Assembly: GCF_014837145.1 (NCBI RefSeq)
Contig: NZ_JACYFS010000001.1
Coordinates: 434,001 to 498,000, forward strand
Source: Chryseobacterium caseinilyticum
GTDB taxonomy: Bacteria > Bacteroidota > Bacteroidia > Flavobacteriales > Weeksellaceae
Direction: 5' to 3'
DNA: 64,000 bases
The notes beneath the pieces were generated by a model. The model did not search any database, was not told the DNA's origin, and saw nothing but the letters and a program-made list of their open reading frames with translations. The position numbers were made by a program, and so were the translations under genes. Each line of letters starts with the position of its first letter. Position 1 is the stretch's first letter. This document shows positions 5,604-23,099 of the stretch, piece after piece.

Positions 5604-6617
5604 CTATGAACGTCTTTTAGAAGCCTTTGAAAATGAAAACATCAGATAAAACAAAAACGGCAGAATGAAAATTGATCCCAGAATCAATCCCCAGCCCAGC
5701 ACAGAAATCGTTTTTTCCGCTGCAATGTGTTTCAGTAAAGAAAGGTGTTGTCCGTTTCCTAAAAGAATAATATCCGGATTGTGCTGATAGGTTGCCGCAA
5801 CCAGAATCATAATGATTTGAAATCCTGCCAAAGCTCTCACCGGAAGTAATTTTCTTTTGTGCATTGCTCTTAAAATTAAACCTAAAGAAACCGTAGCAAA
5901 AGAAATTGACATCACGCCTAATGATTTAGAAAAAATCCATTTAGTTAAAGGAATACCGGAAAAATAAGCAGCTGAAAAAACCAATAGTCCTGAAATCACT
6001 ACAAAAACCATCGTCTGATGTGATTTTTTAATCATCAAAGCCAATTCTAACCTGTCGCTGATTTCGCGTAAAGAAAAAATGGACGCCAGATAAGCACAAA
6101 GCGAGACGGTAAACAATCCAACCGACACCCCAAACCAATTGAGCCAGCTGAAAACGTACAGATCTAAAAAGTTTTCAGCATCAGGATTAATTGATTGCGA
6201 AACCGTTGCTGCAGCGATTAAGCCTAAGAAAAATGGCGTTAACAGACTTGCATAATAAAAGATCTGCGTATAAATAATCTGCCATCGGTCTTCCACCGCA
6301 TCGTAGTGTCTGAAGGTAAATGCAGTTCCTCTTGCAATAATTCCCACCAACATCATCACCAGAGGAATGTGAAGGTAAGTGGACATCGTGGTGTAAATTT
6401 CCGGGAAACCGACAAACAGAATCACAATTGCAATGATCAGCCACATATGGTTGGCCTCCCATATGGGTGCAATCGATTCGTACATAATTTTTTCGGTGTA
6501 CTTTCTGTTTTTCTTTTTGGTCATTAATTCCACAATTCCTGCTCCGAAATCAGCGCCGCCCAAAATCACATATAAACATACGGAAAGCCACAGGAAACCA
6601 ATAACAACGTAGATCAT
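5604..6617 (-). CDS. cydB: cytochrome bd ubiquinol oxidase subunit II
   Basis: Membrane subunit II of the cytochrome bd quinol oxidase, which reduces O2 at high affinity without pumping protons. 337 residues, eight to nine hydrophobic helices, with the N-terminal signature FLWLSVCLYVILGGADFGAG and the ANHMWLIIAIVILFVGFP segment. Start ATG overlaps the cydA stop by 4 bp (ATGA), so the two are translationally coupled. Together they give a complete bd oxidase. I do not see a small cydX-like ORF after it; the next gene is convergent. Confidence 0.95.
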   Translation of the reverse strand: MIYVVIGFLWLSVCLYVILGGADFGAGIVELMTKKKNRKYTEKIMYESIAPIWEANHMWLIIAIVILFVGFPEIYTTMSTYLHIPLVMMLVGIIARGTAFTFRHYDAVEDRWQIIYTQIFYYASLLTPFFLGLIAAATVSQSINPDAENFLDLYVFSWLNWFGVSVGLFTVSLCAYLASIFSLREISDRLELALMIKKSHQTMVFVVISGLLVFSAAYFSGIPLTKWIFSKSLGVMSISFATVSLGLILRAMHKRKLLPVRALAGFQIIMILVAATYQHNPDIILLGNGQHLSLLKHIAAEKTISVLGWGLILGSIFILPFLFYLMFSFSKASKRRS

Positions 6618-7957
6618 GATTTTTTAGATTTAGAGTTAAACTGCGCGTCTGTAGGATCGTATAGTTTCGGAACCATTTTGATCTGTCTGTTAAGAAGAAA
6701 AATAATAATCAATGAGAGCGAAACAAATATCGCTGTAAAAAAGTAAAATGAATACTGAATTCCGGGCATTGGAGTTACCGCGTCTGCCGTTCTCATAATT
6801 CCGTAAATAATCCAGGGTTGTCTGCCCACTTCGGTAACTGTCCAGCCTGCTTCCAAAGCAATATATCCAAATGGTGTGGCGAAAAGAAATGTTTTCAGTA
6901 ACCAGTTTTTATTTAACCAATCTTTTTTGAAAAAGAAAGCGTAGAGATAAACACTTCCGATGGAAATCATCACTACTCCAAAGAAAATCATAATCTGGAA
7001 AGCGTAATGTACAACGGCAACGGGCGGCCATTCATCTTTAGGAAAATCGTTAAGACCTGTCACTTCCGCATTAAAATCATTGGTTGCCAGAAAACTTAAT
7101 ACTTTTGGAATTTTTAAAGCATAATTGATTTCACCTTTATCTTCATCAGGAATTCCCCCAATCACAAAAGCTGCGCCTTTTTCAGTTTCAAAATGTGCTT
7201 CCATAGCAGCTAATTTTATCGGCTGTCTTTCTGCAACAGATTTTGCGGCAACGTCACCACTCAAAGGTGCGCCAAAAGCTCCAATCAATGCAAAGCCGGC
7301 AGCAATTCTGAACGCTTTGGTATGAAATTCAACGTTCTTTTTTCTCATAATTAATAAAGCATGAACTCCTGCAACCGCAAATCCTGTCGCACAAAATGCC
7401 GCGACCGTCATATGCAGAGCCTGCGGCAACCAGGCTTCATTGAACATAGCTTTTATAGGATCGATATTGACGTATTCTCCATTAATATAATCAAAACCCG
7501 TAGGTGAATTCATCCAGGCATTCGCTGCAACAACCAGAATTCCTGATGCCAAACCGCTTAATCCAACCAAAAATCCGCAGAACCAGTGGAACCATTTGTT
7601 GAATTTATCCCAACCGTAAAGAAAAAATCCAATGGCGATAGCTTCAATAAAAAATGCTGTTCCTTCTAGAGAAAACGGCATTCCGAAAATCGGTCCAGCG
7701 TGTTTCATAAAACCCGGCCAGAGCAATCCTAATTCGAAAGAAAGCATGGTTCCTGAAACCGCTCCGGTGGCAAATAAAATGGCAACGCCTTTGCTCCAGG
7801 CTTTCGTAAGTCCTTTATAAATTTCGTTTCCTGTTTTCAGATATTTCCAGTGGGCAAATGCCATGAGAAAAGGCATTACCATTCCCACGCAGGCGAAAAT
7901 AATATGAAATCCTAATGAGAGTGCCATTTGGGCCCGTGCAGCTAAGAAATCGTCCAT
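6614..7957 (-). CDS. cydA: cytochrome bd ubiquinol oxidase subunit I
   Basis: Haem-bearing subunit I that oxidises quinol. 447 residues with nine helices. His18 in LGFHIIFA matches the haem b595/d ligand; LHMTVAAFC holds the b558 His; GRQPW (about residues 378-382) is the family signature; KLAAMEAHFE belongs to the Q loop. The Q-loop region is short relative to the E. coli enzyme (522 aa), so this is the short (S/CIO-like) subfamily. First gene of the cydAB operon; upstream -7 candidate TAACTTTC is only near consensus. Confidence 0.96.
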   Translation of the reverse strand: MDDFLAARAQMALSLGFHIIFACVGMVMPFLMAFAHWKYLKTGNEIYKGLTKAWSKGVAILFATGAVSGTMLSFELGLLWPGFMKHAGPIFGMPFSLEGTAFFIEAIAIGFFLYGWDKFNKWFHWFCGFLVGLSGLASGILVVAANAWMNSPTGFDYINGEYVNIDPIKAMFNEAWLPQALHMTVAAFCATGFAVAGVHALLIMRKKNVEFHTKAFRIAAGFALIGAFGAPLSGDVAAKSVAERQPIKLAAMEAHFETEKGAAFVIGGIPDEDKGEINYALKIPKVLSFLATNDFNAEVTGLNDFPKDEWPPVAVVHYAFQIMIFFGVVMISIGSVYLYAFFFKKDWLNKNWLLKTFLFATPFGYIALEAGWTVTEVGRQPWIIYGIMRTADAVTPMPGIQYSFYFFTAIFVSLSLIIIFLLNRQIKMVPKLYDPTDAQFNSKSKKS

Positions 7958-8175
7958 AATTTTAATTTTTCAGTTGAAAGTTACGGATAAAATTATGGTA
8001 ACATAATATGATTTAAAACATTGCAATTATTTCAGATTTGGGTTGTAACTTTAATGTTTTTTATCTCCGGAAAGGACTCACTTTCTTAGGATAAATTCTG
8101 GTATTTTAAGATTCAAAATACTTTCATAAGTCGAAAAAAATCACGATATTTGTAAGAATTTTTATTCAAAACGAA

Positions 8176-11321
<3,146 letters not shown>

Positions 11322-11344
11322 CTGATCACAGAAAATTATATATT

Positions 11345-11375
11345 AGGGAAGACTTTTTTAAGTCTTCCCTTTTTA
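11345..11375 (+). terminator. Rho-independent terminator after gyrB
   Basis: AGGGAAGAC and GTCTTCCCT make a perfect 9 bp stem around an 8-nt loop, followed by TTTTT. Confidence 0.85.
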
Positions 11376-11432
11376 TTTCTCAGATTATTGAATATTTTTA
11401 AATATTTATTTAACATTTAATTAAGATTTTTA

Positions 11433-11440
11433 TATTTTTG
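11433..11440 (+). promoter_or_regulatory. -7 box of the DUF3857 operon
   Basis: TATTTTTG fits TAnnTTTG. It ends 18 bp before the ATG at 11459 and covers the TTG that would otherwise extend the reading frame, so it decides the start of the following gene. Confidence 0.6.
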
Positions 11441-11458
11441 GTGAAAACTATATTCACG

Positions 11459-13351
11459 ATGAAAATCATAATTGCAGGAGCTTTATTAGTGGCTTCATTT
11501 TATTACTCCCAAACATATCCTGTTTCTTCAATCTCTTCTGAAATTAAAAAAAATGCCAGTGCGGTCATCCGAAGTGAAAGCACTCAGGTTGAAATTAATA
11601 AGATCGATGAGATTATTTATAAAAATTATTCTGCGGTAAGCGTTCTCAACAAAGAAGCGGTGAGTTTTGCTGTTCCAAAAATATTTTATCAGAAAGGCGA
11701 TGTCATCAGCAATGTAAAAGTTGTGGTTTATGACGAAAGCGGAAAGAAAATAAAATCATTTTCCAAAGGTGATTTTCTGGATATCGCAGCGAACAGTCAG
11801 GGATCTTTTTATTCAGACAGCAGGGCGTTAATTTTGTCCTACACTCCATCTGTATTTCCTTATACCGTAGAGTTTTCATACGAACAAAAGGATGAAAGCA
11901 CGGTTTTTATTCCCGATTTTACGCCGTTCGCCAATTTCAATATTTCCCTTGAAAAAAGTACATTTTCGGTGGTAAACAATTCAGGAATTAATCTCAGATC
12001 TAAAATTTACCCGTCACCATTCGGTTATGCATCCGTAAATGCCGATGACAAGGGCAATACAAAGACTTATACTTATCAGAATATTCCTGCGCTGGATGAG
12101 GAAGTTTTGGTTCCGAATCCTCAGAAAATTCTGCCTAAAGTAAGTTTTTCTCTTGATGAGTTTAATCTTGTCGGGAAAAAAGGAAAAATTACGACTTGGA
12201 AAGATTTCGGATTATGGTATCACAACAGCCTGTTAACGCCTGTTTCAGCATCTACTCCACAAATCAAGGCGGAAATTGCAGCTTTAAATCTTACCGGAAC
12301 CAAAGAAGAAAAAATAAAGAAAATCTACCAGTACATGCAGAGCAAAACAAGATATATTTTTGTTTCTCTTGGGATTGGAGGCTGGCAGCCAATGTTACCT
12401 GATGATGTTCAGAAAAAGGGCTACGGAGATTGTAAAGGTCTTACCAATTATATGAAAATATTGCTTGATGAAGCTGGAATAGAATCGCATTACGCAATCA
12501 TCAATTCAAATCCTTCAGCAATAAGTTTTGATAAAGACTTTCCGAAAATGGGCGGCAATCACGTTATTCTGGTAATTCCAACTGAAAAAGGAAATATCTG
12601 GCTGGAAAATACATCGCAGGAAATTGCTTTTAACCATTTGAGCTACAGTACCACAGACAGAAATGTTTTGGCGGTGAAACCATCCGGAATAGAAATTATT
12701 GATACTCCGAATTACACAGCACAGCAAAACAGAGAAAAACAGTTGATTAATATCGTTTTGAATGCTGATAAAACCATTAACGGAAAAGCAAAGATGCAGT
12801 ACACCGGAAATCAGTATGATTTTAATCTCGGATTTGCGGGTTTGTCTCAAAAAGAAAGAAATGACGCTTTAAAGTCACAGATGTCTATGCTGAATTTTGA
12901 GAATCTTGAAATGAATGACTTTAAAAATGACCGCGACGTGGCATCCATTAATTATGATCTTAGTTTTAAAGCTTTAAACTACTCAAAACTGGTGGGCAGC
13001 AGTCTTATTTTCAGAGCCGTACCTATTTATTCAGAAGGCTTTTTTCATGATAATGAGACACGAAATTTACCGTTCGAAACAAAATTTGCCTACGAAGACG
13101 ATTACGAAATCGCTTACGAACTTCCCGAAGGCTACTTCATTGAAGAATTGCCACAAAACGGAATCTTAACTTCTGAATTTGGAACATACAGCCTGAGTTT
13201 TGAGAAAAAAGAGGCTCAGCTGATTGTAAAAAGAGTTATTCAGATAAAAAAAGGCATTTACAACAAAGAAAAATACAATGATTATGTAAGCTTCAGAAAA
13301 AAAATTCTGAATGCAGACAACTCAAAAATAATGATCTCAAAAAAATCATAA
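11459..13351 (+). CDS. DUF3857/transglutaminase-like exported protein 1 (catalytic Cys present)
   Basis: About 630 residues from the ATG at 11459, which starts a signal peptide (MKIIIAGALLVASFYYSQ). The N-terminal half is a DUF3857-type beta domain. The transglutaminase core follows: GYGDCKGLTNYMKILL puts the catalytic Cys at residue 325, GGNHVIL the His at 368, and the third position reads WLENTS (Glu383 instead of the usual Asp). A DUF3858-like C-terminal domain follows (EELPQNGI...). It probably acts as a protease or peptide-modifying enzyme in the periplasm; substrate unknown. First of three tandem paralogues with 2-3 bp spacing. Confidence 0.85.
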   Translation: MKIIIAGALLVASFYYSQTYPVSSISSEIKKNASAVIRSESTQVEINKIDEIIYKNYSAVSVLNKEAVSFAVPKIFYQKGDVISNVKVVVYDESGKKIKSFSKGDFLDIAANSQGSFYSDSRALILSYTPSVFPYTVEFSYEQKDESTVFIPDFTPFANFNISLEKSTFSVVNNSGINLRSKIYPSPFGYASVNADDKGNTKTYTYQNIPALDEEVLVPNPQKILPKVSFSLDEFNLVGKKGKITTWKDFGLWYHNSLLTPVSASTPQIKAEIAALNLTGTKEEKIKKIYQYMQSKTRYIFVSLGIGGWQPMLPDDVQKKGYGDCKGLTNYMKILLDEAGIESHYAIINSNPSAISFDKDFPKMGGNHVILVIPTEKGNIWLENTSQEIAFNHLSYSTTDRNVLAVKPSGIEIIDTPNYTAQQNREKQLINIVLNADKTINGKAKMQYTGNQYDFNLGFAGLSQKERNDALKSQMSMLNFENLEMNDFKNDRDVASINYDLSFKALNYSKLVGSSLIFRAVPIYSEGFFHDNETRNLPFETKFAYEDDYEIAYELPEGYFIEELPQNGILTSEFGTYSLSFEKKEAQLIVKRVIQIKKGIYNKEKYNDYVSFRKKILNADNSKIMISKKS

Positions 13352-13354
13352 ACC

Positions 13355-15292
13355 ATGAAAAAAATATTAATAACATTCTGCTGCGTTTCAGCGGCTTTTC
13401 TGTATTCCCAAAAGCATGAGTTTCTCAAAATGCCAAAGTTCACGATTGAAGACTTAAAAAAATCTAAATCTGCAATTGATGAAAAGGCTCCGGCAGAAAT
13501 TCTGTATAGATCTGTTCACTACAGAATTGACGATACTTCCGGAGATCTTCTGAAAAATATTTCCTACAGAATAAAGGTTTATGATAAAGATAAAGTGGAG
13601 GATTGGATGAATCTCGAAATCTCGCTCTACGACAATAATTCCGGAAGTAAAGAGGCTTTGAGATCAATGAAAGCTGTAGTGTACAATCTTGAAAACGATA
13701 AAATTGCAGAAACAAAAGTTGATAAAAGTTCAAAATTTAAATCAAAAGAAAATAAATACATCACGGTAAATAAATTTGCATTCCCAAACATTAAAAACGG
13801 GTCGGTGATAGAGTATAAATATGAGGTTTCCTCACCTTTTGTTTATCAGGTTCCGATGGCTTACATTGAGCTGGATATTCCTTCAGAGTACACAGAATAC
13901 GTTTTTGAATCTCCTGTAGAAATGTCTTACCATATAGATTTAACTGGCAGTCTTTTTCCCAAACACCGTAAAGTGGAAGAGGCGCAACTTTATGGAAGAA
14001 CTTCCAAAACCTATCGTTTTGCTTATGAAGATCTGAAAGCATTTAAAACTGAAAAATTTGTAAAAAACGGTGACAATTACCGAACTAAAATACGTGCTGA
14101 ACTGCATTCAACCTATTTTAACAACAACCTTAAAATATACACTGCAACCTGGGAAGATATTAGAAAAAAGCTTTGGGATGATGAAGATTTTGGAAATCAA
14201 TATAGAAAAGACCGTGTTGTAAAAGAATTATTATCTGCCGAAATACTGAATGAAAAGGATGAAATGAAAAGAGCAAACCTGATCCATAATTTCGTTAAAT
14301 CTAATTATACCTGGAATGAAAATAACGGATACTACGCAGAAAATGGATTGAAAGATCTTATAAAAACCAAAACAGGAAACAGCGGAGACATCAATCTTAT
14401 GCTTTTGAGCATGCTACGGGGTGCGGGTCTGAAAGCTTATCCTATTCTCATCTCAACTGTAAAAAATGGAATTGTAAATGTAAGTTTTCCAAATGTGGGA
14501 AATTTTAATTATTTGGTTGTCTGTGCAGAGATTAAAGGAAAATCTCATTTGTTTGATGCCACATCAAGACAGTCATCAGAAGGGATTTTGCCATCCAGAG
14601 CTTGGAACAGTACAGGTCTTCTTTTAAAGGATGATAAAGCTGAAGTTATCTCTCTCAACAATATCAAAATGTCTTACAATTATTTGACAACCAAAGCAAA
14701 AATTAATGAAAACGGAAGTGTATCTGGAATGTATGAAGATCGAGACGTTGGATTATTTGCTATGAATGCCAAAGAAAATTATGATGAAAATCAGGAAAAA
14801 TATAAGAAACAGTATAAAGAGAACTTTTCTGTAGATTTCACAGATATAAAATCTAATGTGCTTGAAAACGGAGATTTTGAATCTAAAATGGCATTTACTT
14901 CCGAAAATATGATTGATAATGTTGGCAAGAAAAAGATTTTCAATCCGTTATTATTTCTGCATTCTTCCAAAAATGATTTTGATCAGGCTGAAGAGAGAAA
15001 GTATATCATCGATTTCGTATCGCCAGTTTCTAAAATTAAAACCGTTGAAATTGAGATTCCGGAAGGATACGAAATTGGAGATTTGCCCAAAAGCAGAAAG
15101 ATTGTTACTGAAGACAAAGAAATCAGCTATTCCTACGTTGTAGAAAAAACCGATAAAAAAGTAAAGGTCACTTCACAATATAAAATTGAAAGTGCAGATT
15201 ATCCTAAAGAATATTATCCGGCCTTCAAGCAAATCTGGAAGGTGATTTCTGATAGTGAAAGTCAGGTGATGAGCTTAATAAAAACACATTAA
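13355..15292 (+). CDS. DUF3857/transglutaminase-like exported protein 2 (catalytic Cys replaced by Ser)
   Basis: 645 residues with a signal peptide (MKKILITFCCVSAAFLYSQ). It has the same DUF3857-transglutaminase layout as its upstream neighbour but belongs to a different subgroup: LKMPKFTIEDLKKSKSAIDE after the signal, and at the active site KTGNSGDINLMLLSMLRGAG, with Ser343 where Cys is expected. The His position reads FNYLVV, so the His is also lost, while the Asp segment LFDATS is kept. It is therefore probably not a cysteine enzyme. Starts 3 bp after the previous stop and ends 2 bp before the next gene. Confidence 0.85.
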   Translation: MKKILITFCCVSAAFLYSQKHEFLKMPKFTIEDLKKSKSAIDEKAPAEILYRSVHYRIDDTSGDLLKNISYRIKVYDKDKVEDWMNLEISLYDNNSGSKEALRSMKAVVYNLENDKIAETKVDKSSKFKSKENKYITVNKFAFPNIKNGSVIEYKYEVSSPFVYQVPMAYIELDIPSEYTEYVFESPVEMSYHIDLTGSLFPKHRKVEEAQLYGRTSKTYRFAYEDLKAFKTEKFVKNGDNYRTKIRAELHSTYFNNNLKIYTATWEDIRKKLWDDEDFGNQYRKDRVVKELLSAEILNEKDEMKRANLIHNFVKSNYTWNENNGYYAENGLKDLIKTKTGNSGDINLMLLSMLRGAGLKAYPILISTVKNGIVNVSFPNVGNFNYLVVCAEIKGKSHLFDATSRQSSEGILPSRAWNSTGLLLKDDKAEVISLNNIKMSYNYLTTKAKINENGSVSGMYEDRDVGLFAMNAKENYDENQEKYKKQYKENFSVDFTDIKSNVLENGDFESKMAFTSENMIDNVGKKKIFNPLLFLHSSKNDFDQAEERKYIIDFVSPVSKIKTVEIEIPEGYEIGDLPKSRKIVTEDKEISYSYVVEKTDKKVKVTSQYKIESADYPKEYYPAFKQIWKVISDSESQVMSLIKTH

Positions 15293-15294
15293 TA

Positions 15295-17202
15295 ATGATA
15301 AAACAATTAACATCAGGGCTAATCTTATGCTCAAATCTTTATTTTTCACAACACAATTTCTTAGAATACCCAACGATAAGTGAAAATGAGGTGACAAAAT
15401 CTAAGTCAGTTATAGATCAGTCAGCCCCTGCAGAAATTTTGTATAACAGTGTAAGATATAATATAGAAGGCCTTTCTGCAGAAAAGACATATTTCTCAAA
15501 GATAAAAATTTTCGATCGAAAGAGGTCTGAGAGATGGCTCAATATTGAAATACCTGTGATGACAGGTGAACACCTTTCTGCTTTTGTAGTAAATGTTTAC
15601 AGTTATAAGAATGGAAAGGTTGGAAAAGTAAGCTACAATAAAAAAGAGCAGCTTAAAGAAAATGTTGTAAAAGGACTGCGATTCTATAAAATGGCAATAC
15701 CCGACGTGGCAGATGGCGACGTGATTGAATATTCCTATAAACTGGACACAGGTATTTTTAATCTGAGCCATTATTTGGAACACGATATCCCTGTGGTGTA
15801 TCAGGAATATAATCTTGAATATCCTGATGATATTATTTATTCTTTCAACAGTGCCGGAAGTATTGTAAAGCCGCTACATCATGTTTCAAAAACAGACAAC
15901 CGTTTAGGAAAAAGATATCTGATTGAAAGATTTGCTTTTACGGATATGAAACCGGTAAAGGAGGAAAAATTTGTGAAGAATATCGATAGATTCCGAAAAC
16001 GTATTAAGCCGGAACTGCAGAAATATACCTTCGGAAATTACAGTTATGAGTTTGCGAGGACTTGGAATAAAATTGCAAAAAATCTTGATGAAAATGATCA
16101 TTTCGGAGGGTTTTTAAAGTCTTCCGTGAAAGATGTTTTACCTGAAGAAATTAAAAAGACCATTTCAAAAACAGACAGAGCAGACAAAATTTTTAATTAT
16201 GTTAAAGGTAATTTCAAGTGGACAAATGATAAGGGAGTAATCACCAGTCAAAGTCTTAGACAAGTTGTAAAAACAAAATCCGGAAATGCGGCAGAGATTA
16301 ATTTACTGCTCGTAAGCCTGCTCCGAAATGCAGGTATAGAAGCTAATCCGTTGCTGATTTCTACTGTTGACAACGGTATTTTAAACATCGTTTTACCAAA
16401 CATCAATAATCTGAATTTTGTACTGGCATCTGTAAAGATTGACGGTCAGTATTATTTTTATGATGCCACTTCACCAAATTCAAAAGCAAATTTACTTCCT
16501 GAAAGAGACTGGAATGACTTTGGAATTTTATTTGAATCCGATAAAGGTACAGATATATCATTTTCAAACACAAACCTCAGTAAAAAAGAACTTCTTGTAA
16601 AAGCTAAATTGGATCTGGAAAGCTCACATATTACCGGAGACTTTTCACATATAGAAAACGGAATGTATGCGATAGAATCGTATGATGACTATGAATACAA
16701 TCCTTTGAAATATAACGAAAGTTTTGAAACAGATTTTAACATCCGTATCAAAAATGTAGAAACTAAAAAAACGACTGATGGTGAAATGCATTCCAAAATG
16801 ACATTCACAGATAACGGAAATATAGATGTAGTGGGTTCAAAGATCATTTTAAATCCTTTATTATTTTTAAAAGTTCAAAATCACGGGTTTGATCAGACAG
16901 ATGAACGAATGAATTCTATTGATTTCATATCTCCTTGTCATCATAAAAAATCAATAGAAATTGAAATTCCGGCGGGATACAAGGTTGCCGAAATGCCAAA
17001 GCCAAAAACTACCAGAACAGATGATGATGAGCTCTCTTATAAATATACCTGTGAAATTGTAAAAGATAATATCATTCGGGTGACCTCTGAAGTAAAAGTA
17101 GCGAGTGGAACTTATCCGAAAGAATACTATCCTTTTTTTAAACACGTTTATAAGCTGATCTCCGATACCGAAAATCAGGTAATAAGTTTAACAAAAAAAT
17201 AA
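15295..17202 (+). CDS. DUF3857/transglutaminase-like exported protein 3 (catalytic Cys replaced by Ala)
   Basis: 635 residues, closest to the second paralogue (shared opening NEVTKSKSVIDQSAPAEIL against KKSKSAIDEKAPAEIL). Signal peptide MIKQLTSGLILCSNLYFSQ. The active-site loop reads KSGNAAEINLLLVSLLRNAG, with Ala332 at the Cys position; the His region reads LNFVLAS; the Asp region FYDATS is intact. Sequence therefore predicts a non-catalytic fold, perhaps a binding or scaffold protein. Last gene of the operon, followed by a terminator. Confidence 0.85.
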   Translation: MIKQLTSGLILCSNLYFSQHNFLEYPTISENEVTKSKSVIDQSAPAEILYNSVRYNIEGLSAEKTYFSKIKIFDRKRSERWLNIEIPVMTGEHLSAFVVNVYSYKNGKVGKVSYNKKEQLKENVVKGLRFYKMAIPDVADGDVIEYSYKLDTGIFNLSHYLEHDIPVVYQEYNLEYPDDIIYSFNSAGSIVKPLHHVSKTDNRLGKRYLIERFAFTDMKPVKEEKFVKNIDRFRKRIKPELQKYTFGNYSYEFARTWNKIAKNLDENDHFGGFLKSSVKDVLPEEIKKTISKTDRADKIFNYVKGNFKWTNDKGVITSQSLRQVVKTKSGNAAEINLLLVSLLRNAGIEANPLLISTVDNGILNIVLPNINNLNFVLASVKIDGQYYFYDATSPNSKANLLPERDWNDFGILFESDKGTDISFSNTNLSKKELLVKAKLDLESSHITGDFSHIENGMYAIESYDDYEYNPLKYNESFETDFNIRIKNVETKKTTDGEMHSKMTFTDNGNIDVVGSKIILNPLLFLKVQNHGFDQTDERMNSIDFISPCHHKKSIEIEIPAGYKVAEMPKPKTTRTDDDELSYKYTCEIVKDNIIRVTSEVKVASGTYPKEYYPFFKHVYKLISDTENQVISLTKK

Positions 17203-17210
17203 AAACATCC

Positions 17211-17238
17211 AAAACCATTCACATTTGAATGGTTTTTG
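17211..17238 (+). terminator. Rho-independent terminator of the DUF3857 operon
   Basis: AAAACCATTC and GAATGGTTTT form a perfect 10 bp stem around a 6-nt loop, followed by TTG. Confidence 0.8.
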
Positions 17239-17261
17239 CATTCAAAAGTTAAAATTATTGT

Positions 17262-18083
17262 ATGAAAAAATCTGCCGTAGTACTTGCCATCGGAATTTGC
17301 GCATCTTTTGTGTCCTGTAAGGAGGAGAAAAAGGTTGATGTGGCAACCAGCTCAGTTCCGTCGACAGAAAAATTTGTTGTAGATTCAATTTCGGTAAAAG
17401 ATTCGTTAGTGATGAGCCCAAAACTCTCACTTGAGTACCGTTCGGAAGTTCTGCTGTATCCTTCAGTTAAAAATAAAGCTTTGCTGGACAGTATTTATTT
17501 CATCTATAAAGGCATCACAGATTTTTCTAAAAATGGAATGCAGGATTTCCTTCAGAAAGATAAAAATGATTATTTTGACGAGACAAAAAAGCGCAGCAAA
17601 GACTGGCTTTCAGATATTACTTACAAGCAAAGCTGGTACACGAGTTTCAAGATGACACAGACCTCGCATAAAAATGATTTTCTGCAGATGGAATATCTTT
17701 CTTCAGCCTATGAAGGCGGCGCTCATGATAACTATTGGTTTTCAAACAGGGTTTTTGATTTAAAGAACAGTAAAAAACTGACTCTATCGGATATAACAAC
17801 GATGCCTGAGGCAAAAATTTCGCAGATCCTGAAGAAAAATATGGATAAAATTCACAGTGGAACTACCGATTCTCGGGGAGATGTGAAAAATTCTGATATG
17901 CTTCTGGTAGATGTGATTGAACCGAATGAGAATTTTTATTTTGACGAAAAAAATCTTTATTTCCATTACAGTCCGTATGAAATTGCGGCCTTTGCTGCCG
18001 GCGACATTGTAATTCCGGTTTCTTGGGTTGAATTGCAGGGAACATTGAAACCTGAATTTCAACAAAGATTAAATTTAAAGTAG
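17262..18083 (+). CDS. DUF3298/RsiV-like lipoprotein 1
   Basis: 273 residues. The signal peptide ends in a lipobox-like FVSC (Cys19), so it is probably a lipoprotein. The body matches the DUF4163/DUF3298 pair best known from RsiV and PdaC: a two-part alpha/beta domain with the signature YEGGAHDNYW (near residue 150), VFDLKNSKKLTLSDI, and a C-terminal IVIPVSWVELQGTL strand. RsiV-type proteins bind lysozyme, but that role cannot be inferred here. A paralogue follows, each gene having its own terminator. Confidence 0.8.
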   Translation: MKKSAVVLAIGICASFVSCKEEKKVDVATSSVPSTEKFVVDSISVKDSLVMSPKLSLEYRSEVLLYPSVKNKALLDSIYFIYKGITDFSKNGMQDFLQKDKNDYFDETKKRSKDWLSDITYKQSWYTSFKMTQTSHKNDFLQMEYLSSAYEGGAHDNYWFSNRVFDLKNSKKLTLSDITTMPEAKISQILKKNMDKIHSGTTDSRGDVKNSDMLLVDVIEPNENFYFDEKNLYFHYSPYEIAAFAAGDIVIPVSWVELQGTLKPEFQQRLNLK

Positions 18084-18125
18084 ATTAAAAATGATCAGTT
18101 CGCAAAAATTTTAAATAAAATTTAG

Positions 18126-18160
18126 AAAACTTTCCAAATACTGATTTTGGAAAGTTTTTT
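18126..18160 (+). terminator. Rho-independent terminator
   Basis: AAAACTTTCCAAA and TTTGGAAAGTTTT form a perfect 13 bp stem with a 7-nt loop and a T-tail. Confidence 0.85.
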
Positions 18161-18183
18161 GCTTTCAGTCTGAAAAAATATTC

Positions 18184-18978
18184 ATGAAAAAAATTGCCCT
18201 GGCACTGTCCCTTTTCGCCTTATTTGCATCCTGTAAAAAGAATGTTGCACAGACTCAGGTTACCAAAACTGAAGACAGCATAAAAATTGAAAAACAAAAT
18301 CCTGAACTTACTATCGACTCACTGCTGGTGCACGATTCCGCAAAAATCTCTAAAAACCTTTCTGCAGAATTTAGACAGAAGTTATTGACTTTTGAAGGTT
18401 TAGAAAAAAAGGTCCTTGACAGCCTTTATTTTGGAGAACTTCTTTTAAAAGATCAGCCTATGAAGGATTTTTCAAAAGAAAATATTCTTCAACGGATGAA
18501 TGACAATATGAAAAATTATTTTGCAGAGACAAAAACGGGAGAGGAAGATTTTGTAAGAGAGTATAAACAGACATGGGATCAGATTTCTGATATGAAAGTT
18601 TTCTCGAAGACCAAAGACTATCTCACCATACAGTATAATGGTTACGGCTTCAGTGGGGGAGCTCACGGTTATGGCTATGATCTTTATAAAGTGGTTGACC
18701 TTAAAAATCAGTCAATTATTCAATTGTCTGATCTTATTGACAGTTCAAAAATCAATTGGAAACCCATTTTATTGAAACATGTTGACAGAGAAATGCTTTT
18801 CGATGAAAATATTACAGCAAACAATAACTTTTATTTCGATTCGGATTCTCTCACATTTATTTACAATCAGTATGAAATTGGTCCTTACGCCGCCGGAATA
18901 ATTGAAATCAAAGTTCCGTTTTCAGAAATTAAACAGGCTTTAAAACCTGAATTTAAAAAGAGACTCAACATTAACTAA
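18184..18978 (+). CDS. DUF3298/RsiV-like lipoprotein 2
   Basis: 264 residues, a paralogue of the gene just upstream: lipobox LFASC (Cys17), SGGAHGYGY in place of EGGAHDNYW, VVDLKNQSIIQLSDLI, FYFDSDSLTFIYNQYEIGPYAAG split across the same positions, and the shared ending LKPEFKKRLNIN. The two differ widely outside these motifs, so the duplication is old. Probably a periplasm-facing lipoprotein; ligand unknown. Followed by a terminator whose T-run touches the promoter region of the lipid kinase gene. Confidence 0.8.
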   Translation: MKKIALALSLFALFASCKKNVAQTQVTKTEDSIKIEKQNPELTIDSLLVHDSAKISKNLSAEFRQKLLTFEGLEKKVLDSLYFGELLLKDQPMKDFSKENILQRMNDNMKNYFAETKTGEEDFVREYKQTWDQISDMKVFSKTKDYLTIQYNGYGFSGGAHGYGYDLYKVVDLKNQSIIQLSDLIDSSKINWKPILLKHVDREMLFDENITANNNFYFDSDSLTFIYNQYEIGPYAAGIIEIKVPFSEIKQALKPEFKKRLNIN

Positions 18979-18982
18979 TATT

Positions 18983-19010
18983 AATGCTTCCGTATCAGGA
19001 AGCATTTTTT
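18983..19010 (+). terminator. Rho-independent terminator
   Basis: AATGCTTCC and GGAAGCATT form a 9 bp stem with a 6-nt loop; TTTT follows and runs into the -7-like box of the next gene. Confidence 0.85.
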
Positions 19011-19021
19011 ATTTTTACAAA

Positions 19022-19873
19022 ATGGAAAAAGTAGCTTTCATTATCAATCCTTTTTCAGCCAAAAAAAATTACCAGCCTTTTCTTAACGAGCTGAAAGCAA
19101 AAGTAGAAAATCCTTTATACTATATATCAGAATCAATTATGGGGACGGATGAGTTTATCAGACAGAACTATGATAATGTGGAAATTTTTGTAGCGATTGG
19201 TGGCGACGGAACGATTTCCACTGTGGCGGGAAATATTATCAATTCAGAAAAAATTCTTGCAATATTTCCGGCAGGTTCTGGAAACGGTTTTTCCAACGAA
19301 ACACAGTTCAGCAAAAATCTGGATGAGCTTTTAGCTAAAATTAAAATTAAAAAATTTCGTAAAATTGATACGTTTACCGTTAATGAAAGGCTTTCCATCA
19401 ATGTTTCAGGCACAGGTTTCGATGGTAAAGTCGTGAAGGAATTTGAAAAAACCAGCCGTGGATTTAAAAATTACATCACAGTTTCTCTGAAAACATTTTT
19501 CAGTTACAAACCTATCAAACTGAAATTTTCTGATGAAAAATACAGTCAGTACAACGGTAAATATCTGATGGTAAACATTGCAAATACACGTCAGTTCGGA
19601 AACAACGCTTATATCGCACCAATGGCAAGCAAAAGTGACGGTTTGGTAGATATGGTTTTGGTTAAAAAATTTCCGCTGACCTATTCACCTTTGTTTGCAT
19701 TCAGGATGTTTACGAAAAAACTTAAAGAAGACGACTACATCACTTATTTGCCGGTCTCAGAAATTGAATTTAAAGTGAATACCAAAAACTGGCATCTGGA
19801 TGGTGAGTTCAACAGAATAGAATCTCCCATCCGCATCAAAGTGCAGCAGGCAAGTCTGAATATTTTGATCTGA
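19022..19873 (+). CDS. diacylglycerol/lipid kinase family protein
   Basis: 283 residues, DagK/YegS/BmrU family. Catalytic-domain motifs: FIINPFSAKKNY at the N-terminus, VAIGGDGTISTVAGNII (the GGDGT nucleotide loop, near residue 60-65) and FPAGSGNGFSNE. The C-terminal beta-sandwich carries WHLDGEFNRI. It should phosphorylate a lipid such as diacylglycerol at the membrane surface; substrate not predictable. The near-consensus -7 box TATTTTTA (19010-19017) ends only 4 bp before the ATG, so the message may be leaderless. Confidence 0.85.
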   Translation: MEKVAFIINPFSAKKNYQPFLNELKAKVENPLYYISESIMGTDEFIRQNYDNVEIFVAIGGDGTISTVAGNIINSEKILAIFPAGSGNGFSNETQFSKNLDELLAKIKIKKFRKIDTFTVNERLSINVSGTGFDGKVVKEFEKTSRGFKNYITVSLKTFFSYKPIKLKFSDEKYSQYNGKYLMVNIANTRQFGNNAYIAPMASKSDGLVDMVLVKKFPLTYSPLFAFRMFTKKLKEDDYITYLPVSEIEFKVNTKNWHLDGEFNRIESPIRIKVQQASLNILI

Positions 19874-19935
19874 AAATAAAAAGAAAATATTCAAAAGGCT
19901 GTTATTTTCTGAAACATCACAGTTCTCAGAACGAA

Positions 19936-19972
19936 ATAACCCTGCCAGCGTTCAAAACGCTGACAGGGTTAT
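19936..19972. terminator. bidirectional palindrome between convergent genes
   Basis: Arms ATAACCCTGCCAGCGTT and AACGCTGACAGGGTTAT around 3 bp, with one mismatch (C:A in plus-strand RNA, G.U wobble in minus-strand RNA). It sits between the stops of the lipid kinase (+) and the symporter (-), where it can serve both transcripts. Confidence 0.65.
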
Positions 19973-20014
19973 GTTTATCGGTTGGATTAACTTAAATTAT
20001 TTAAACACTAATTT

Positions 20015-21295
20015 TTAAACTTCCAGTTTCTTTTCAATCTCATTTGGATTTGCAAGACAATATTTCAGCTGCTCTTTATCAAGTTGCTTTTCCCAGTTGG
20101 CCACAACAACAGTCGCTACTGAATTCCCAATGACGTTCGTTAAAGCACGGCATTCACTCATAAATTTATCGATTCCCAATATCAATGTCATCCCTGCAAT
20201 TGGTATTTCGGGAACTACTGCCAATGTTGCAGCCAAGGTGACAAAGCCTGCGCCCGTAACTCCTGCGGCTCCTTTAGAACTCAACATTGCAACTAAAAGA
20301 AGCATCAGTTGTTTTTCGAGGGAAAGATCTACATTCAAAGCCTGTGCAATAAAAAGTGAAGCCAATGTCATGTAAATATTTGTTCCGTCAAGATTAAATG
20401 AATAACCGGTGGGAACAACCAGACCAACGATGGCTTTCGAACAGCCTGCCTTTTCCATTTTTTCCATAATCCCAGGAAGGGCAGATTCTGAAGAACTCGT
20501 ACCTAAAACCAGAAGAAGTTCTTCCTTAAGATAATACATCAGTTTAAATATATTAAAACCGTTGTACCAGGCGACAGCTCCCAAAACTACGACAACAAAA
20601 AGTGCTGATGTAATATAAAATGTTCCTACCAGAAAAATCAGATTGAGAACAGATGCCAAACCGTATTTCCCTATTGTAAAAGCCATAGCACCGAAAGCTC
20701 CTATTGGTGCAAGTTTCATGAGCATGTGAACGATTTTGAAAACCGGAGTAGATAACATCTGAAGAAATTCGGTTATTTTTCCGCTTTTTTCTTTTGTTAA
20801 AACAAGGGCAACTCCAAATAAAATGGCAACTAATAAAACCTGCAGAATATTTTCGCCGACTAAAGGACTGAAAAGCGTTTCCGGAATGATATTCATAATA
20901 AATCCCGTCAGAGTAGTATCGTGTGCCTTTTGCTGATATTGTGAGACGTCACCGGAAAGACTTGCGGGATCGATATTAAGTCCGGATCCCGGTTGTAAAA
21001 TATTTCCGACAACCAATCCGATGATCAAAGCTAAAGTGGAGAAAGTGAAAAAGTAGATCATTGCTTTCACTGCAATTCTTCCTACTTTTTTCAGATCGGT
21101 CATGTGCGCAATTCCCAGAGTAAGTGTAATGAAAATCACCGGAGCAATAATCATTTTCACCAGTTTGATAAAGCCGTCACCCAGAGGTTTCATTTTTTCG
21201 CCGAGTTCTGGATAGAATTTCCCGAGAAGGATTCCCAGAACAATCGCAACAATTACCTGAAAGTACAATTGCTGATAAAACTTTTTTGATTTCAA
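20015..21295 (-). CDS. dctA: dicarboxylate/glutamate:cation symporter (DctA/GltP family)
   Basis: 426 residues, eight membrane helices plus two re-entrant hairpins of the SDF family. Hairpin 1 serine motif: [19 protein letters not shown]7 motif [13 protein letters not shown]; hairpin 2 region [15 protein letters not shown]8 [16 protein letters not shown]. The ECRALTN segment resembles C4-dicarboxylate carriers (E. coli DctA has EARALTN) more than glutamate carriers, so fumarate/succinate/malate is the likelier substrate; this choice is inference. Stands alone, oriented like ggt upstream, but separated from it by a heptamer array. Confidence 0.85.
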
Positions 21296-21345
21296 ATTAT
21301 AAATTTAGCTGGGAAATTAAGAAATTAAATTCAATAGTAAATTTA

Positions 21346-21412
21346 AATCTCAAATTTCAAATCTCAAATCTTGAATTTTAAATATTGAATCTTGAATCTT
21401 GAATCTTGAATC
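21346..21412. repeat. heptamer array (TTGAATC and relatives) at the ggt stop codon
   Basis: Four exact TTGAATC units (21385-21412), preceded by decayed units of the CAAATCT type. The last unit includes two bases of the ggt stop codon, so on the ggt strand the array starts immediately after translation ends. A similar array abuts another stop at 25.05 kb. Confidence 0.85.
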
Positions 21413-23099
21413 ACTCCACCGCAACAGAATCATCTCCACGACCATCGGCAACAGCATGAATATTTCCGTTTTCATCTACTAAGATCATTTCCGTTCTGCC
21501 AAGTTGATCCCATCTTTCAGATTTGTAGCCTAAATTTTCAAGGTTTTTGATAGTGGATTCTGGAAAATTCTTTTCGAACGCAACCCATTCAGGCAACCAC
21601 TGATGATGGAATTTTGGAGTATTTACGGCAAGATTGGCATTCAGTTTAAAATCGATGACATTAACTACAGACTGAAAAACAGAAGTAGGAATGGTAGTTC
21701 CACCCGGAGTTCCCACAACCATAAAAGGTTTTCCGTTTTTCATTACGATCGTTGGTGTCATCGACGATAGCATTCTTTTTCCAGGTTGAATTTCATTGGC
21801 CTTTCCACCTACGGCACCAAACATATTGGGAACGCCGGGCTTCACAGAAAAATCATCCATTTCATTATTCAGAAAAAATCCTGCTCCGGAAACGACAACT
21901 TTGCTGCCGTAAAGACCATTTAATGTTGTTGTCACGGCAGCTGCATTTCCATCTTTATCAATTACCGAAATATGGGTAGTTTCCGTAGATTCTTTAGGTT
22001 GCTGAATGATTTTCCCAACCTCTGAACTCGGTGTGGCTTTACTGAAACTGAAAGATTTCCATCTGCTTTTTAAATATTCATCAGAAATTAAATACGAAGT
22101 TTTATCATTGATGAAATTCGGATCACCCATATATTCCGCTCTGTCGGCAAAAGCTCTTCTTTCTGCTTCTACCATGATTTGTACAGCCTCAGTCGAATTT
22201 TGCTGATAGTTCTGGAGGTTTTCAAAAGAAGACATTTTCAGCATCTGTGCCAAAAGAATTCCTCCGCTTGAAGGTAGAGGCATAGAAATAATGTCACTTT
22301 CTTTATATTTAAAATTCAAAGCCTTTCTTTCTGCAACTTTATAATTTTTGAGATCGTTTAAAGTAATGATGCCGGTACCGTTTTTCATTTCTTTTACAAT
22401 TAAATCGGCAGTTTTACCTTCGTAAAAACCTTTCATTCCGTTTTTCTGAATAAGTCTTAAAGTTTCTGCAAATTCTTTCTGTATCAGAATATCACCTTGC
22501 TTCCAGTCTGAGTTTTTAATAAACGCAATTTTGTTTTTGTTGTGCTCTGCAAAAAACTTCCTGCTGTAATTCAGTAAATCCGCTTCCTGACTGGTGATGG
22601 CAAAACCTTTTTCAGCAATATCGATGGCAGGCTGAATAAGCTTGTCCATCGGAAGTTTACAGTATTTCAGTGTTGCAAAAAATCCTGCAACGCTTCCGGG
22701 AATTCCAACTGCCAATCTTCCGTTTTGAGACAGATCGGTATCAGCATTTCCTTTACTGTCGAGATACATATCTTTGAACGCCTTTGCAGGAGCGGTTTCA
22801 CGGTAATCCAAACTGAAACTCTCACCATTATTTTTCACACCTACCAAAAAGCCTCCGCCACCAATGTTTCCGGCCTGTGGATAGACTACGGCAAGGGCGT
22901 ACTGAGTTGCAACAACGGCATCATAGGCATTTCCGCCCATTCTCAGAATTTTTGCGCCTGCTTCACTTGCCAGAGGATGTGCACTTACCACAACACCTTT
23001 TTTAGAAACCTTGACTTCTTTTACGATCCTTATATCGGTGTATTGTGCTGATAGAGAACATGCTGCAAAGAGTAAAATACAGATAATATTTTTCATCAT
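21411..23099 (-). CDS. ggt: gamma-glutamyltransferase
   Basis: 562 residues, N-terminal nucleophile hydrolase that cleaves the gamma-glutamyl bond of glutathione and related peptides and transfers it to water or amino acids. A signal peptide (MMKNIICILLFAACSLSAQ) directs it to the periplasm. The precursor is cleaved before the catalytic Thr in ESTETTHISVID (about residue 371); the GGGGF segment and LNNEMDDF lie in the expected places on the large and small subunits, with PGGTTIPTSVFQ for substrate binding. Length is normal. Single gene. Confidence 0.95.
   Translation of the reverse strand: MMKNIICILLFAACSLSAQYTDIRIVKEVKVSKKGVVVSAHPLASEAGAKILRMGGNAYDAVVATQYALAVVYPQAGNIGGGGFLVGVKNNGESFSLDYRETAPAKAFKDMYLDSKGNADTDLSQNGRLAVGIPGSVAGFFATLKYCKLPMDKLIQPAIDIAEKGFAITSQEADLLNYSRKFFAEHNKNKIAFIKNSDWKQGDILIQKEFAETLRLIQKNGMKGFYEGKTADLIVKEMKNGTGIITLNDLKNYKVAERKALNFKYKESDIISMPLPSSGGILLAQMLKMSSFENLQNYQQNSTEAVQIMVEAERRAFADRAEYMGDPNFINDKTSYLISDEYLKSRWKSFSFSKATPSSEVGKIIQQPKESTETTHISVIDKDGNAAAVTTTLNGLYGSKVVVSGAGFFLNNEMDDFSVKPGVPNMFGAVGGKANEIQPGKRMLSSMTPTIVMKNGKPFMVVGTPGGTTIPTSVFQSVVNVIDFKLNANLAVNTPKFHHQWLPEWVAFEKNFPESTIKNLENLGYKSERWDQLGRTEMILVDENGNIHAVADGRGDDSVAVE

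Follow-up and report, generated by a model that had tools for sequence, protein, structure and literature searches.

Proteins of the transglutaminase superfamily usually carry a catalytic triad of Cys, His and Asp or Glu (PMC4866520, in the part of the article available to us), and inactive members of the fold are already known. The accessible part of PMC10318531 names Rad4, EPB42 and FBXO21 as such proteins and describes the papain/transglutaminase-like domain of Rad4/XPC as an inactive domain that serves binding. The only paper on DUF3857 that we found, as far as its accessible text goes, names a DUF3857 gene beside lolA in Xanthomonas (PMC6341742), and the open-licence PubMed Central (PMC) literature yielded neither a functional study of the exported DUF3857 family nor a study of an active/inactive pair. 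Here we describe an operon of three tandem genes for DUF3857/transglutaminase paralogues in Chryseobacterium caseinilyticum, found in a 64,000-nucleotide stretch of contig NZ_JACYFS010000001.1 (forward-strand positions 434,001 to 498,000; hereafter the window, with positions counted from its first letter). In our judgement the operon probably, though by no means certainly, encodes an enzyme-pseudoenzyme set, in which an exported thiol enzyme works with one or more dedicated non-catalytic partners. The genes and the codons of their triad positions are as follows, with lengths in amino acids (aa).

11459-13351, forward strand: gene 1, 630 aa, a DUF3857-transglutaminase-DUF3858 protein of the active type
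13355-15292, forward strand: gene 2, 645 aa, lacking the triad Cys and His; the conserved neighbour of gene 1
15295-17202, forward strand: gene 3, 635 aa, a second inactive paralogue, patchily present within Chryseobacterium
12431-12433, forward strand: Cys325 codon of gene 1 (GDCK), the presumed nucleophile
12560-12562, forward strand: His368 codon of gene 1 (GNHV)
12605-12607, forward strand: Glu383 codon of gene 1 (LENTS), third triad position
14381-14383, forward strand: Ser343 codon of gene 2, at the Cys position
14510-14512, forward strand: Tyr386 codon of gene 2, at the His position
14555-14557, forward strand: Asp401 codon of gene 2 (DATS)
16288-16290, forward strand: Ala332 codon of gene 3, at the Cys position

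The three genes lie on the same strand, with 3 base pairs (bp) between genes 1 and 2 and 2 bp between genes 2 and 3, and their triad letters align over one common loop. Gene 1 has the triad of the superfamily (Cys325/His368/Glu383), whereas gene 2 (Ser343/Tyr386/Asp401) and gene 3 (Ala332/Phe375/Asp390) do not. An earlier sequence-only reading of this DNA had reported GDC, GNS and GNA at the same loop, a catalytic His in gene 1 only, an Asp kept at the third position of genes 2 and 3, and the tight spacing, and we find each of these as it was described. It had also singled out the Glu of gene 1 as standing in place of that Asp; the residue was read correctly, but there is no anomaly, since Glu is shared by 135 of the 138 members of the gene-1 clade in our alignment and is normal there, not a defect. 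A Pfam scan reported DUF3857 and Transglut_core in all three genes, partly under the curated gathering cut-offs, and DUF3858 in gene 1. For DUF3857 (PF12969, cut-off 24.6 bits), genes 1 and 3 score above the cut-off at 63.5 and 26.3 bits, and gene 2 scores below it at 21.1 bits, yet aligns and folds like the other two. For Transglut_core (PF01841, cut-off 23 bits), it is genes 2 and 3 that score above, at 26.9 and 33.2 bits, and gene 1 that scores below, at 18.6 bits.

To place the three proteins among their relatives, we searched 165 stretches, the window included, and obtained 358 hits, of which 14 outside 400-800 aa were dropped and identical sequences were merged. The resulting 338 distinct sequences (400-800 aa) and 4 outgroup domains were aligned in 342 rows, among which close relatives are over-represented; the alignment was made with fast MAFFT, and the His-position letters of distant rows are possibly misaligned. 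The best branch of the tree separates 148 rows (138 Cys-His-Glu, 9 Cys-His-Asp and a single Ser-Asp-Asp row, L104) from 194 inactive rows, not one of which has Cys and His together. The aligned letters thus divide along one branch with one exception, a pattern that is not due to chance. With the outgroups excluded, the gene-1 clade consists of 135 Cys-His-Glu and 3 Cys-His-Asp rows. The exceptional row belongs to a distant tandem (genome G012), in which its partner is a Cys-His-Asp protein; the two are possibly a second, divergent active-inactive pair.

Within the inactive rows the Cys position holds Ser in 72, Val in 34, Ala in 33, Thr in 16, Gly in 11, Ile in 10, Gln in 4, Cys in 3, Asp in 3 and a few other letters in the remainder, and the His position holds Tyr in 102, Phe in 33, His in 27 and others in the rest. 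The third position, by comparison, is Asp in 192 of 194. The three rows with Cys are the gene 2 proteins of the closest relatives (L034, L035 and L045), in which Tyr replaces His; these nearest relatives read GNC at the loop. The Cys position therefore drifts within the inactive group, and retention of the Asp has a different cause. Since the old Cys position holds Ser more often than any other residue, and since His is retained in 27 rows and Ser-His-Asp occurs in 16 of the 342 aligned rows, genes 2 and 3 could in principle be enzymes with another nucleophile, such as a Ser in some lineages. We regard this as very improbable: the other 122 inactive rows lack Ser, gene 3 of the window has Ala, and the inactive rows contain no conserved Cys or His column (the best Cys column reaches 25 of 194, and the best His column 58 of 194). 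A relocated nucleophile in genes 2 and 3 is likewise rejected on the absence of such a column. In addition, positions 305-308, in the GIGGW loop of gene 1, are gapped in 193 or 194 of the 194 inactive rows.

The history of the loss was examined on a tree of 85 rows, built after removal of the three triad columns. On this tree the state of the Cys position changes once, that of the His position 6 times and that of the Asp/Glu position 3 times; 40 of the 41 inactive rows group together at 99, with L172 and the odd L104 row beside the group. In both trees examined, genes 2 and 3 are nested in one Cys-less group. Because they share that group, and because the Cys position has drifted, the earlier proposal that catalytic residues were lost stepwise from gene 2 to gene 3 fails; the trees and the GNC of the nearest gene-2 relatives rule out stepwise loss within the operon. 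Its companion suggestion, that the loss is old and conserved in Bacteroidota, is borne out by the 194 inactive rows and the single change of the Cys state. Stepwise loss, with the Cys going first and the His later, likely did occur at the depth of the phylum, because retention of His in inactive rows is concentrated beyond the window's class, where 21 of 40 such rows keep it, compared with 2 of 86 within the family of the window, the window included.

We then asked how often the two types occur together. In a phylum-wide sample of 296 genomes, searched with profiles of the gene-1 and gene-2 types, a strong gene-1 match (E 5.6e-103 or better, the next match being 9.5e-61) was found in 72 genomes, and all 72 also contain gene 2. 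A script placed 71 of the 72 pairs on one strand and no more than 500 bp apart; the adjacent copy of the last genome (G352) lay outside the input of the script. Gene 1 comes first in 26 of these genomes (27 with G352) and gene 2 in 45, and the stop and start codons of the two genes overlap in examples of both orders. In a class-wide sample of 375 genomes (E 1e-70 or better, distances read by eye), gene 1 was found in 49 genomes, gene 2 in all 49, and the two lie within 500 bp in 47. Gene 2 alone was found in three genomes of this sample. As 28 genomes are common to both samples, the number of different genomes with a strong gene 1 is 93; the inactive type is present in all 93 and lies within 500 bp in 91. 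Per genome, only 3 to 6 candidates were scored, and copies may have been missed. Both orders are seen in family codes f19 and f22. The proposed pairing is thus supported well outside Flavobacteriia, and the loss of the tandem in relatives, named beforehand as the result that would overturn the proposal, is not what the samples show. Together, the triad letters, the tree and the genome samples support the view that one intact-looking enzyme adjoins non-catalytic paralogues.

Within Weeksellaceae, the family of the window, 133 of 197 genomes contain both proteins, 4 gene 2 only, 5 gene 1 only and 55 neither (a hand count at E values up to 0.001); among the exceptions is G193, in which gene 1 is degenerate and gene 2 was not found. 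In three genomes (L175, L176 and L177) only the inactive type, with Gln at the Cys position, was found, and gene 1 was not found in the fetched sequence. The neighbours of the pair, which we take to be gyrB; rsgA, dtd, mazG and aroA; ferritin; or ssb according to lineage, vary, and adjacency persists through changes of gene order. It is therefore the pair, not its surroundings, that is the conserved unit, and for the same reason the contexts point to no pathway. No fusion of gene 1 to gene 2 occurs among the six long frames that were read from the matches listed (L125-L130). The listed frames much longer than one gene span about 965-1325 aa, with the 965-aa frame of G622 outside the six; five of the six are of a 1250-aa type and one is a 973-aa single-domain type.

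The inactive genes are under purifying selection. For gene 1 the ratio of nonsynonymous to synonymous substitution rates (dN/dS) has a median of 0.047, over the 15 of 60 pairs that were computable with dS < 1.5; the gene-2 median of 0.05 comes from 4 of 32 pairs. The three computable pairs of gene 3, all with dS > 1.5, give 0.051, 0.128 and 0.074; gyrB, for comparison, gives 0.005 to 0.029. We considered whether genes 2 and 3 might instead be decaying relics that hitchhike with gene 1, as broken gene-2-type copies in L117, L136, L137 and L138 might suggest. This is hardly credible given the dN/dS of about 0.05 for gene 2, the full-length copies found across the phylum and the third-position Asp, which 192 of 194 rows retain. 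Rather, because the pairing recurs so widely in related bacteria, the dead copy is suggested to be a working partner. The inactive type shows these features of a pseudoenzyme: catalytic residues lost in 194 rows, retention by selection (over the 4 pairs above) and linkage to an active paralogue. The two types also conserve different things. The gene-1 type keeps GIGG..P and the YGDCK region; the inactive rows, in which the GIGGW loop is missing, conserve Asn347, Pro363, Ser367, Thr368, Pro379, Asn385 and Asp401.

The N-termini of all three proteins resemble signal peptides, each ending in SQ (YSQ in gene 1). In Bacteroidetes, signal peptide cleavage exposes a Gln in most signal peptidase I substrates, according to the accessible part of PMC5837995. 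A simple regular expression recognises a signal-peptide-like N-terminus in 108 of the 135 Cys-His-Glu rows and in 181 of the 194 inactive rows, and these N-termini point to export of the operon's proteins.

The structure predicted for gene 2 (from 28 sequences) has a mean predicted local distance difference test score (pLDDT) of 77.3. The best fold match of both the gene-1 and the gene-2 models is 3KD4 (BDI_1141 of Parabacteroides distasonis), with a Z score of 19.1 over 481 residues for gene 2 and 13.4 over 292 residues for gene 1. It is probably the structure to which Pfam refers in naming DUF3857 and DUF3858. It differs from the window proteins in sequence, being 11-16% identical to them and matching only at E 0.83 and 0.094. 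Because two weak alignments place GTP where gene 1 has GDC, 3KD4 too may be without the catalytic Cys. After 3KD4, the gene-2 model matches oligosaccharyltransferase chains (N-terminal part only, Z up to 12.3), XPC (11.4), PNGase (10.6), TglA (9.6) and LapG (9.4), and the gene-1 model matches TglA (10.7), LapG (10.4), transglutaminase 3 (10.1) and Rad4 (8.9). The gene-2 core would thus be nearer XPC and the gene-1 core nearer TglA and LapG, a modest contrast between predicted models.

These relatives differ from the operon in several respects. The match of XPC to the gene-2 core extends over 147 residues at about 10% identity and is one of fold only; Rad4 and XPC act in eukaryotic DNA repair, no Rad4 model appeared in our Pfam scan at E up to 1, and we know of no tandem active paralogue for either. 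The periplasmic protease LapG and the Streptococcus protein TglA match the gene-1 core with Z values not far above those of unrelated rows, and to our knowledge neither has a DUF3857 part or a paired pseudoenzyme paralogue. Closer to home, the DUF3857-transglutaminase proteins of about 1250 aa in the same bacteria (L125-L129) have Cys-His-Glu and a homologous C-terminal half, but they fall outside the gene-1 clade, and the stretches fetched for them showed no inactive partner. Their long N-terminal half is, we presume, TPR-like.

The residues, the predicted fold, the single change at the Cys position, the phylum-wide adjacency in both gene orders and the purifying selection were all computed directly. 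That the gene 1 and gene 2 proteins work together is their most likely meaning, and physical contact between the two we infer. Gene 1 would then encode a thiol enzyme with the transglutaminase fold and a Cys-His-Glu triad. Once exported, this enzyme would probably work in the periplasm or at the outer membrane, with proteins or peptides as substrates, as an amidase, a peptidase or a transamidase. Gene 2 would be its dedicated partner, with the fold kept, the nucleophile and the GIGGW loop lost and its own conserved residues round the old site, and its protein would scaffold, gate or present substrate to the gene-1 enzyme. Gene 3 would be a second partner, probably the remnant of a duplicated cassette.

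Several observations weigh against this interpretation. The activity of gene 1 is read from its residues alone, and its model (29 sequences) has a mean pLDDT of 63.7. On the 85-row tree, the branch that has the inactive rows on one side has a support of only 66 (0.91 with FastTree), and the tool flags long branches and uneven composition. The pairing itself has breaks: 16 of the 88 genomes of the phylum sample with a strong gene 2 lack a strong gene-1 match, in the class sample the two genes are 855 bp apart in G936 and no adjacent gene-2 copy is among the matches listed for G624, the genes lie on different contigs in G003, and in three Weeksellaceae genomes (G103, G191 and G144; L136, L137 and L138, respectively) gene 1 is intact but the adjoining gene 2 is broken. 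The broken copies, if real, the split contigs and the solitary gene 2 copies argue against strict dependence. Moreover, conserved adjacency also fits two proteins that serve one pathway and never touch. In that case the transglutaminase fold of gene 2 would have been repurposed into a free-standing binder of a peptide, a glycan or some other protein. The 16 genomes just mentioned favour this account, as do the known inactive proteins of the fold, such as Rad4 and EPB42 (PMC10318531, in its accessible part). With a looser link between the genes, however, more frequent breaks would be expected, and a strong gene 1 never occurs without gene 2 in 93 genomes; we consider a relationship without contact possible but doubtful.

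A more specific arrangement, which we think unlikely but worth stating, is a split two-subunit transglutaminase-like enzyme in which the cleft of the pseudoenzyme, remodelled around Asn347, Ser367-Thr368, Asn385 and Asp401, holds one substrate, the Cys-His-Glu partner attacks it, and neither half works alone. If this were so, duplication of the dead half into genes 2 and 3 would diversify the choice of substrate, which would also fit an allelic replacement over genes 2-3 of the window strain.

Gene 3 falls within a clade of paralogues from the window's family. Two stretches from the Chryseobacterium group (L048 and L050) carry a doubled cassette in the order active-inactive-active-inactive, and gene 1 of the window groups with the copy that adjoins the gene-3 type. 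Because of these doubled cassettes and this grouping, the operon is best read as a collapsed duplicate, in which one enzyme and two partners would be left. In a comparison with Chryseobacterium sp. Leaf394 (L034), the 250-bp bins at 5750-13500 and 17250-22750 are 87-100% identical, but across 13750-17250, which takes in the whole of gene 3 and most of gene 2, identity drops to 72-84%. Allelic replacement of 13750-17250 by recombination is likely.

The features that flank the operon in the window are listed below.

9387-11321: gyrB, upstream of gene 1, identified by our own reading of the sequence
11345-11370, forward strand: hairpin of 11 pairs followed by a T-run, resembling a terminator and lying between gyrB and gene 1, a consensus match only
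17211-17236, reverse strand: hairpin 3' of gene 3, 11 pairs, scored as terminator-like on the reverse strand

The first hairpin suggests that gene 1 starts its own transcription unit. The region contains 8 terminator-like sites, compared with 3.4 expected from shuffled sequence. A Bacteroidota promoter pattern has no match upstream of gene 1, and its total matches are not above chance. Downstream of the operon, at 17262-18978, lie two tandem genes of one similarity cluster. Among the stretches compared, 34 have members of this cluster downstream of the pair, and every one of these 34 comes from the family of the window.

Across the phylum, the active enzyme thus remains next to its dead paralogue despite changes in gene order and neighbourhood. 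This linkage predicts that the two form a complex and that function would be lost without the dead half, and it makes the pair a starting point for the study of an exported protein family that is widespread.

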